This document shows, piece by piece, positions 10,911 through 12,910 of a stretch of DNA of 64,000 nucleotides; within the stretch, counting starts at the first letter, position 1; every line of letters begins with the position of its first letter. The stretch is from Turicibacter sanguinis (lineage in GTDB: Bacteria; Bacillota_I; Bacilli_A; MOL361; Turicibacteraceae): positions 919,501 to 983,500 of the forward strand of contig NZ_CP053187.1 of assembly GCF_013046825.1 (NCBI RefSeq), in the 5' to 3' direction. The notes under the pieces are model-generated. The model was given only the letters and a program-made list of their open reading frames with translations. It searched no databases and was not told the origin of the DNA. The translations under genes and the position numbers were made by a program.

Positions 10911-10940
10911 TTGAAAAACTAGGAGTTACAGGAGTATAAT
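10911..10940 (+). promoter_or_regulatory. Sigma-A promoter of yebC
   Basis: TTGAAA (10911-10916), 18-base spacer, TATAAT (10935-10940). The roughly 75-base leader contains a CTATTGT/ACAATAG hairpin before the AGGAGTG ribosome binding site. Confidence 0.65.
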
Positions 10941-11021: not shown

Positions 11022-11747
11022 ATGGGTCGTAAGTGGAATAATATTAAATACGGAAAAGCTGCTAAAGATGCTGCCCGTTCAAAAGTTTTAGCTCGTTTCG
11101 GAAAAGAAATTTACATGGCTGCTAAAAATGGAGATCCAGATCCAGAATTAAACCGTAACTTAGCATCAGTTATTGACCGTGCTAAAGTTGCAGGGGTTAA
11201 CCGTGAAATCATCGACCGCGCTATCAACAAAGCAAAAGGTGGATCAGACGAAAATTACGATTTCATCCGCTATGAAGGATACGGACCAAATGGTGCTGCC
11301 GTTATCGTTGATACATTAACTGACAACGTAAACCGTACAGTAGCTGAAGTACGTTCTGCATTTAACAAAAACGGTGGAAAAATCGGAGTAAGTGGTGCCG
11401 TAGCATTCATGTTCGAAGCAACAGCATTATTCGGATTCAACGGAAACTCAGCTGATGAAATTTTAGAAGGATTAATGGAAGCAGACGTAGACGTTCGTGA
11501 CGTTGAAGAAGAAGATGGAGAAATCACAGTATACGCAGACCAAGATCAATTCCATGCCGTACAAACAGCATTAAATGGAATGGGAATCACAGAATTCGAA
11601 GCTGCAGAATTAACAATGTTACCAACATCAACAGTAGAATTAGATGGTGATGCATTAGCTAAATTCGAAAAATTAATCGACGTACTAGAAGACTTAGACG
11701 ATGTACAACAAGTTTACCACAACGTAGAATTACCAGACGAAGAATAA
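11022..11747 (+). CDS. YebC/PmpR (TACO1) family protein, YeeI type
   Basis: A 241-residue full-length YebC protein. The start [20 protein letters not shown] replaces the AGHSKWANIKHRK of classical YebC and matches the Firmicute YeeI subgroup. Domain I is helical (to about 75), followed by the [21 protein letters not shown] and [17 protein letters not shown] domains. The family was long annotated as transcription factors; recent work links members to helping ribosomes through polyproline or other difficult stretches. Codon use looks optimised (highly expressed). A strong promoter and AGGAGTG site precede it; the stop is followed at once by the repeat tract. Confidence 0.95.
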
Positions 11748-11748
11748 T

Positions 11749-11864
11749 AAAAGGCTAAGAGATGTGCTTAACACTCGTAGAAAGTAAGGAGAGTCCGCCG
11801 TGTCGTAAGACACAAGAGGCTCTCGAACTTTACCAGAGTGTTGCATCTCGAATCTAGATTAAAT
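11749..11864 (+). repeat. Structured intergenic repeat, unit R1 (116 bp)
   Basis: Starts AAAAGGCTAAG two bases after the yebC stop and ends GATTAAAT. Nested pairings form one long hairpin: GAGATG/CATCTC (11759-11764 with 11844-11849), AACACTC/GAGTGTT, GTAAG/CTTTAC, GAGAGTCC/GGCTCTC and GTGTC/GACAC capped by a GTAA (GNRA-type) tetraloop. Unit R2 has the same length and matching ends. Confidence 0.7.
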
Positions 11865-11980
11865 AAAAAGCTAAGACGAACAGATAACTCCGAATAAAAG
11901 TGCTTAGCCACCGAAGTTCTTGAAAGTACAATTGTGGATAAAACTTTATAGAGGAGTTATTCATCGAAGCTGGATTAAAT
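11865..11980 (+). repeat. Structured intergenic repeat, unit R2 (116 bp)
   Basis: Abuts R1 directly, has the same 116-base length, starts AAAAAGCTAAG and ends GCTGGATTAAAT. The basal stem is ATAACTCC (11884-11891) with GGAGTTAT (11953-11960), a different sequence from the R1 stem at the matching place, so base pairing rather than sequence is kept. Its last 40 bases resemble those of R1 and of R4. Confidence 0.7.
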
Positions 11981-12071
11981 AAAAGGCTAAAGCTAATACT
12001 TTAGCTGTTCAAAAAATGTAAGGGAGTGATAAGTGTCTCGTTTTTAGAGACACTTATCACTCCCTATTTTT
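11981..12071 (+). repeat. Structured repeat, partial unit R3 ending in a long palindrome
   Basis: Starts AAAAGGCTAAA directly after R2, then diverges into a palindrome with 19-base perfect arms (12021-12039 and 12047-12065; arm starts AGGGAGTGATAAG) and a TTTTTT run. It may serve as the terminator for yebC and its repeats. Confidence 0.65.
12021..12071 (+). terminator. Strong terminator closing the yebC-repeat transcript
   Basis: Nineteen perfect base pairs, 7-base loop GTTTTTA, followed by ATTTTTT. It is unusually long for an intrinsic terminator. Confidence 0.75.
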
Positions 12072-12430
12072 TAAAACAAACTAATTCAAAAGGAATTTTT
12101 TGGTTAATCTTATACATTTATTCTGAAGAGACAGTGAGCTAAAGCTAGATTTCCATCCCTTGTACCAAGCTATTCCTGTGCCTGATTTATGCTTTTATCT
12201 TACACTCCACGTACTTTGTACGTGATTTTTTATGATTGAGTTATTACTCTTTTATACTTAATAGTCAATTGTACATTTCACAGAAATTCATTATTTTAAG
12301 TGTATATCACTCCTAATACTCTGCACTCTATTAATGAAAACAACTCATCATCTGTTTAAAGTAAGTACTTTGTAGGATATAATAACAGTATCGAATTCAA
12401 AATATGAATTCCTAAAAAGGAGCTCTGAGC
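12072..12430. other. Intergenic region before the 126-aa gene
   Basis: AT-rich, no supported gene. It holds a second terminator-like hairpin, CACGTAC/GTACGTG with a T-run at 12208-12232, and AT-rich promoter-like sequence upstream of the AAGGAG site at about 12417. Confidence 0.5.
12208..12232 (+). terminator. Terminator-like hairpin with no clear upstream gene
   Basis: CACGTAC-TTT-GTACGTG followed by ATTTTTT. The nearest plus-strand gene already has a terminator at 12021-12071. Confidence 0.6.
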
Positions 12431-12811
12431 ATGGAAATTAAAACAAAACATAAGAAATTTAATAGTTTTACAGATTTATATAGCTTTATGATAGATAGTC
12501 ACTTAGAAGAAATAAGTGTCACAATGAAATATCCTGACGGAACAAAAAGTTCTGGAATTATGCCAATTGACATGGTTTTATCATTCACTTCAATTGAACA
12601 AATTAAAACTTTTGATAAAGAGTTAAAAGAATTATCAACTAAATACAATGAAGATTTAGCTAAAGTTCGTGAAATTGCAGAAAACTGTAATGAGTTGAAT
12701 TATTTCGAAGATGAAGATGGTGAAATTCAAGCTCAATTAGATGCAATCGAAGCAAGCAATGAGCTCAAACAAGCAGTCACTGAATTAGTAAACGAAAAAT
12801 TACATGGTTAA
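12431..12811 (+). CDS. Acidic protein of unknown function
   Basis: A 126-residue soluble protein with no recognised motif. The first half is alpha/beta (LEEISVTMKYPDGTKSSGIM), the second half is an acidic, probably coiled-coil helix region (FDKELKELSTKYNEDLAKVR and EIQAQLDAIEASNELKQAV). AAGGAG lies eight bases before the ATG, and coding-like codon use supports a real gene. The stop codon overlaps the start of repeat unit R4, as the yebC stop adjoins R1. No function is proposed. Confidence 0.75.
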   Translation: MEIKTKHKKFNSFTDLYSFMIDSHLEEISVTMKYPDGTKSSGIMPIDMVLSFTSIEQIKTFDKELKELSTKYNEDLAKVREIAENCNELNYFEDEDGEIQAQLDAIEASNELKQAVTELVNEKLHG

Positions 12812-12910
12812 AAGCACGTGAAAGTTCAAGTTTCCTTTACCCTTTCGTTTTATGAAAGAATGAAGGAAGTAGACTTTATAGAGGGGTTAGTGATCAAAGG
12901 TGGATTAAAT
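12810..12910 (+). repeat. Structured intergenic repeat, unit R4
   Basis: Starts AAAAGC in the stop codon of the preceding gene and ends GTGGATTAAAT. The 3' part (ACTTTATAGAGG...GGATTAAAT) matches R2 at about 32 of 40 positions. An internal hairpin TTCCTT...CTTTC/GAAAG...AAGGAA replaces the R1/R2 inner sequence. Confidence 0.6.

Follow-up and report, generated by a model that had tools for sequence, protein, structure and literature searches.

The yebC/pmpR gene of Turicibacter sanguinis is followed at its stop codon by an array of related repeats, named R1 to R3 in a preliminary description of the locus; a fourth unit, R4, overlaps the end of a downstream open reading frame. The coordinates given here refer to the window, the whole stretch of 64,000 nucleotides that was analyzed.

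10911–10940, + strand: predicted yebC promoter, TTGAAA-18-TATAAT, from a consensus scan (the whole region is not richer in such sites than its shuffles)
11022–11747, + strand: yebC/pmpR, with the array at its stop (open reading frame; NCBIfam PRK12378, E = 1e-98; stop TAA at 11745–11747)
11749–11860, + strand: R1, complete copy, 112 nt (83.1 bits, E = 9e-14, covariance model R1)
11861–11864, + strand: AAAT spacer between units R1 and R2, at the target-duplication position (read from the sequence)
11865–11976, + strand: R2, complete copy, 112 nt (96.3 bits, E = 2e-16)
11977–11980, + strand: AAAT spacer between R2 and R3 (read from the sequence)
11981–12151, + strand: R3, broken copy with intact ends AAAAGGCTAA ... 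GCTAGATT and a replaced interior (28.2 bits, E = 0.009)
12021–12065, both strands: 19-bp perfect hairpin followed by a T run, within R3; predicted terminator on both strands (fold z = −11)
12431–12811, + strand: 126-amino-acid open reading frame with no NCBIfam or Pfam match (stop at 12809–12811, inside R4)
12795–12906, + strand: R4, decayed copy with a good 3′ half and a degenerate 5′ half (31.2 bits, E = 0.0023)

R1 and R2 lie in tandem with a period of exactly 116 and have the termini AAAA[GA]GCTAAG and CT[AG]GATT in common, as the preliminary description had reported; the period is made up of a 112-nt core and the 4-nt AAAT spacer. Against dinucleotide shuffles, both units fold markedly better (z = −5.4 for R1 over 11749–11864; z = −3.2 for R2 over 11865–11980). 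R3, described as a partial copy, is a broken member of the family whose interior contains the predicted yebC terminator hairpin. The assignment of R4 to the family stands, inasmuch as the unit was also recovered in the whole genome with covariance model R2 (E = 0.003) and its 3′ end (12873–12910) is 87% identical to that of R2, but its own fold is not better than shuffles (z = −0.6). The view that both R1 and R4 begin at host-gene stop codons holds for R1, which starts 2 nt past the yebC stop codon, but not for R4, within which the host stop lies. If the promoter and the terminator downstream of R1 and R2 are correctly predicted, both units are part of the yebC transcript; R1 and R2 are thus predicted to lie in the yebC 3′UTR.

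A repeat family with a constant fold

Relatives of these units were first collected by a whole-genome DNA search; 18 of them were aligned to give covariance model R1 (22 pairs), and covariance model R2 was built from 69 copies. The preliminary description had proposed a covariance-model search and named a lack of further copies or of covariation as grounds for abandoning the family. Neither outcome occurred. Model R2 yielded 51 matches at E ≤ 0.1 in the 2,999,687-bp genome (G000), counting R4 and a few partial copies, a number far above chance, and the family showed both covariation and placement at stop codons. The same model found 27 matches in one congener (G003), 13 in a second, 8 in a third (G001), and 1 in an incomplete congener, as well as divergent forms in sister genera (8 matches in one genus and 2 in another). 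The element encodes no protein and measures 112–120 nt; in one sister genus, lengths of up to ~133 nt are reached. Tandem arrays contain up to 8 units; the near-identity of units within the arrays of 8 and 6 suggests later growth by recombination.

The element adopts the architecture of one long hairpin. An AGCU/AGCU clamp leads into the 7-bp stem P1; a bulge of four nucleotides, GNUU, on the 5′ strand then separates P1 from P2 (5–6 bp), above which lie an internal loop (CGUA/AUAGA or GCU/ACCA), P3 (AAAGU/ACUUU), and a variable arm. The ends, AAAARGYTGA and CTRGATT, are not inverted repeats beyond the 4-bp AGCT clamp. Among 65 distinct copies, standard pairs occupy 93.0% of cells compared with 68.6% after shuffling, and double-sided changes are seen in 356 cells compared with 100.5, which bears out the earlier proposal that an RNA structure is kept. 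Covariation in these copies is 0.650 versus 0.195 shuffled, and falls to 0.10–0.12 once the 3′ strand is displaced by 1–3 columns; compensatory covariation was likewise seen in the first 18 copies. The differing paired sequences noted earlier in the basal stems of R1 and R2 are true compensatory changes and recur family-wide; in P1 and P2, a single position can show as many as six types of pair. Less variation is seen outside the stems, in the terminal sequences AAAARGYTGA and GAARCTRGATT, in the GNUU bulge, and in the internal-loop letters. The fold is strongly supported, and its shape is constant while the stem sequence varies. Folding is possible on both strands; G-U cells outnumber A-C cells (41 vs 24, outermost pair excluded), which weakly indicates that the sense strand is the one that matters.

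Searches farther afield delimit the family. Model R1 found no match beyond the genus in 296 genomes across the class (165 genera). The sole outside match of model R2 among 392 genomes of the phylum (G074, locus L244), a weak one in another family, was rejected as a chance match that lies in coding sequence and has no fold. Scanning a species genome collection for the 3′-end pattern, with records near G000 excluded, returned 24 matches (best 20.8 bits), all of which the covariance model calls chance; beyond the host family, this collection thus yielded no true match. One contig of a viral collection, the phage satellite L217, carries a true copy (79.9 bits) at an HTH-gene stop codon, together with serine recombinases, a replication protein (rep), and an SSB gene. 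Rfam gave 0 matches in the window at the gathering threshold, and at permissive thresholds the copies drew only chance hits from unrelated families; in the literature searched, no account of the family turned up. A whole-genome pattern search for orphan ends recovered remnants only, with no long gene-carrying copy and no autonomous parent.

Several other repeats accompany the elements. At G000 824171–824215 (L088:4172–4216), a 45-nt deletion derivative with both element ends joined lies at a gene end. A second repeat family of ~107 bp, AACCCTG...AGGATAAGATGGTCTAAATTTCG...ACCATCT, is interleaved with elements at L091:4023–4584 (G000 1176022–1176583), L085, and L003; at murF, the repeated unit is a composite one of 227 bp. 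GC-rich palindromes such as GGGGCCCCAC...GTGGGG and GGGTCACCTGCC...GGTAGGGC constitute a third, nested family inside or beside elements (L094:4512–4560, L096:5700–5900, L085, and L069).

Placement, empty sites, and probable decay

Copies are placed sharply with respect to genes. Fourteen of the 20 clusters in G000 start ≤10 nt from the stop codon of a gene on the same strand, and 1 more starts ≤25 nt away. In the window, a random intergenic position and orientation falls ≤8 nt after a same-strand stop in 1.6% of cases; with this rate doubled, the binomial probability is 4e-19 for 15/20 and about 4e-17 (calculated by hand) for 14/20. The element often supplies or overlaps the host stop, and several proteins end in '...KS' encoded by AAA-AGC-TGA. 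Upstream genes include yebC, murF, an S4-domain gene, pyrR, dut, purB, ahpC, ricT, nrdD, tdk, deoxynucleoside kinase (dNK), purL, a sulphur-transport membrane gene, and others. The 6 clusters farther than 10 nt from a stop include two antisense groups in the pst region and one cluster before rimM. In congeners, a variant with the ends GAAAAGCAA...TTGCTAGACA occupies 23S-5S, 5S-tRNA-Gly, and tRNA-tRNA spacers. The sister genus G005 has 2 copies at stop codons and 4 others directly after TATAAT, TATCAT, TACAAT, or TATCAT ahead of a gene; in one of these four, the promoter is near-consensus (11/12 matches).

Two of the regions examined have an unusual gene organization. At L084:11004–15324 (G000 ~413003–417323), nrdD is in two parts ~2.4 kb apart, separated by two open reading frames for GIY-YIG (group I intron-type) endonucleases, and an element lies 24 nt past the stop of one of them; Rfam reports no group I intron at this locus at the gathering score. 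In G001, L111:9507–17367 is densely packed with ~70 tRNA genes, among which 5S genes are scattered, in blocks that nearly repeat.

The strong covariation, the sense orientation, and the placement at stop codons are all features expected of a cis-acting RNA in 3′UTRs or between cistrons, such as a processing or stabilizing hairpin or a ligand-binding element, that hosts use on selected transcripts, many of them concerned with nucleotide metabolism or stable RNA. The presence of purL, purB, pyrR, dut, nrdD, tdk, and dNK among the host genes also fits this explanation, as do the copy at purL in three species and the 23S-5S copy in all G003 rRNA operons examined. Other hosts (yebC, murF, ahpC, ricT), however, are otherwise unrelated, and the 6 of 20 clusters away from stop codons, some of them antisense, count against it.

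Comparison of orthologous sites bears on this explanation directly. When the 3′ ends of thirteen copy-bearing G000 genes were compared with those of congeners, most congener ends (yebC, murF, pyrR, tdk, dut, and others) were empty, with the stop followed by an ordinary terminator or the next gene. The same gene carries copies in several species in the cases of purL (three) and ahpC, ricT, and purB (two). One rRNA operon of G003 lacks the 5S-tRNA-Gly copy found in other operons, and the spacer between tRNA-Val and tRNA-Gln holds a copy in G004 but none in G001. An exact 4-mer is common to both flanks in 9 of 50 clusters versus 1.1 expected (p < 5e-5), and in G005 the flanks agree over 7 bp at L115 (TATCATT), L119 (TACAATT), and L120 (TATCATT); older clusters often have no clear duplication. 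Judged from these comparisons, the elements are mobile, as the preliminary description had suspected; the copy carried by the phage satellite L217 is in keeping with this. At the 3′ ends of yebC and purB in G004 (L166 and L129, respectively), the ends AAAAGGTTG ... GAAGCTAGATT are kept around an unrelated interior (CCCTAAAGGATAA...), which suggests that the element ends may act as the mobility signal.

If hosts used the element, copies at sites shared between species should keep their pairs. Copies at shared sites (purL, a LacI-type gene, and satellite rep) have a mean of 83% of P1–P3 pairs, compared with 93% in other copies (Mann-Whitney p = 0.002, from 8 old copies and a model trained mainly on G000); among non-G000 copies alone, the values are 83% and 90%. 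The poorer pairing of shared copies argues that mobility, and not a service to individual host genes, is what maintains the fold, and that pairing is lost once a copy has inserted. At the LacI-type gene, G001 and G004 differ by 2 compensatory changes and 6 broken pairs, whereas tRNA Glu-Thr copies differ between species by 2 compensatory changes and 0 broken pairs; some sites, of which tRNA Glu-Thr is an example, may be functional. We infer that the lineage that keeps moving preserves the fold and that inserted copies lose it, although particular sites may depart from this pattern. The conserved regulatory 3′UTR role raised in the preliminary description is not supported, given the element-free state of most congener orthologues and the poorer pairing at shared sites; similar copies between rRNA or tRNA genes and in 5′ leaders also speak against it. 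A cis-acting host RNA is an unlikely account of the family.

A candidate mechanism and the mobilizing enzyme

The explanation that we consider probable is that of a miniature, non-coding mobile family in which the hairpin is recognized by an enzyme acting in trans, selection for mobility keeps the fold, and fixed copies decay. The copy number, the fold, its variable positions, the empty sites, the short target duplications, and the tandem growth constitute the observed part of this explanation. The enzyme would recognize the element as a folded single strand, either of RNA or of DNA in the same sense, together with the termini AAAARGYTGA and CTRGA. Insertion would take place into A/T-rich targets such as TAATAT at stop codons, the 3′ flanks of tRNAs, or TANNAT (−10) boxes. 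Selection for mobility would maintain the fold, and decay would follow fixation. Copies at 3′ ends are located upstream of the terminator and probably form part of the transcript of the preceding gene; at mRNA ends they may be passive hairpins, and any effects on expression would differ by site.

No mobilizing enzyme was found as a constant companion of the element in the copy-bearing genomes. Reverse transcription and integration of the element RNA would explain the sense orientation in transcribed places and would be compatible with the RNA-like fold, the modest G-U excess, and the short target duplications. Yet a reverse-transcriptase domain is absent from G001 and G003, which hold 8 and 27 copies, respectively, and such a retroelement is very unlikely. 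The hairpin shape and intergenic location also recall REP/RAYT systems, in which a Y1 HUH transposase acts on hairpins in single-stranded DNA, and Y1_Tnp (PF01797) is present in G001, G003, and G004. This domain is absent from G005 and from G000, the genome with the most copies and the near-identical arrays. Moreover, target duplications are not expected for Y1 transposition but are present here, and a REP/RAYT-type origin is accordingly highly improbable. Each of the two enzymes, reverse transcriptase and Y1 transposase, is thus absent from some copy-bearing genomes and does not accompany the element throughout.

A third enzyme came to attention through its position. A gene for a satellite replication protein (Pfam REP_ORF2-G2P) is directly followed by a copy in each of G001, G003, and G004, and the viral contig L217 holds both rep and a copy, which raises the question of whether this HUH-type replication endonuclease of phage satellites also moves the repeat. 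The copy on L217, however, follows a gene other than rep, so the link to rep may be incidental; most copies are not near rep, and we regard the proposal as very doubtful. Two other candidates were dropped: a Helitron-like reading of the CTRG end because of the target duplications, and type III toxin-antitoxin repeats because no toxin gene was recognized beside the arrays and the sites are too many.

It is tempting to speculate that the element represents a new mode of mobility, in which the folded transcript, or the non-template DNA strand exposed in transcription, would be the substrate of transposition and sense insertion would be directed to places that are transcribed (stop codons, −10 boxes, and the 3′ ends of tRNA and rRNA genes) without terminal inverted repeats (TIRs). 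We consider this bolder possibility rather improbable.

Relation to known repeats and significance

Like bacterial MITEs, which are short (<200 bp), non-coding, present in many copies, and mostly intergenic, the elements measure 112–133 nt and number 51 in G000. They also resemble MITEs in inserting with target-site duplication, as seen in the empty and filled sites and the 9/50 shared 4-mers, but TIRs that match a transposon, a further mark of bacterial MITEs, are absent and no autonomous parent was found. By description only, the nearest in kind appear to be YPAL/ERIC-type miniature elements, here without TIRs, from which the present elements would form a separate, undescribed family.

YPAL (RU-2) of Yersinia is ~168 bp long, has no TA termini, contains internal inverted repeats, and is flanked by target duplications of 3–26 bp; both filled and empty sites occur, and YPAL is read out with upstream genes, with a likely effect on upstream transcripts (Delihas review, PMC2229807). 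The Turicibacter element is similarly a small, non-coding hairpin with internal inverted repeats, no TA termini, and variable target duplications, and YPAL is its closest counterpart in kind. It differs from YPAL in length, sequence, and host phylum; its stem sequences are not conserved, it is placed much more precisely at stop codons, and it often forms head-to-tail tandem arrays. The likeness is one of described features, and since length and host differ, membership is not claimed. ERIC (IRU, RU-1; 127 bp) exerts an orientation-dependent effect on upstream mRNA (PMC2229807) and shares with the present family a long stem-loop in transcribed intergenic regions. ERIC is enterobacterial and has TA ends and a 7-bp TIR, whereas the Turicibacter family has neither, is of a different length, and lies outside the enterobacteria.

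Terminal inverted repeats are found in ERIC, RUP, NEMIS, and BOX, and SPRITE of Streptococcus pneumoniae is terminator-like and enriched near gene 3′ ends (PMC3049150). SPRITE, RUP, and BOX are, like our elements, small structured repeats of low-GC Gram-positive bacteria, but SPRITE has AAAA/TTTT ends, RUP has TIRs like those of IS630-Spn1, and BOX is modular. REP/BIME sequences, which go with RAYT transposases, are likewise intergenic palindromes, but they differ in length and structure, and G000 has no Y1 transposase (PF01797). The integron attC site offers another parallel, being a folded hairpin with a variable arm that lies next to stop codons and in tandem. By inspection, no 7-bp outer complementary box was seen in our elements, and they have target duplications, which are not expected for attC sites.

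What is new in this family is the near-total freedom of stem sequence under a constant fold, together with an unusually sharp placement at stop codons in the sense direction, the tandem arrays, and the occupation of stable-RNA spacers. Most small bacterial repeat families are defined by sequence, and their mobilizing enzymes are unknown; here it is the fold that is constant. A covariance model of the family would also help annotation: it would flag about 50 features in G000 that currently carry no annotation and explain odd, element-encoded C-terminal extensions such as '...KS'. Two old questions, namely what moves such elements and whether hairpins at mRNA ends alter expression, become testable within one genus.
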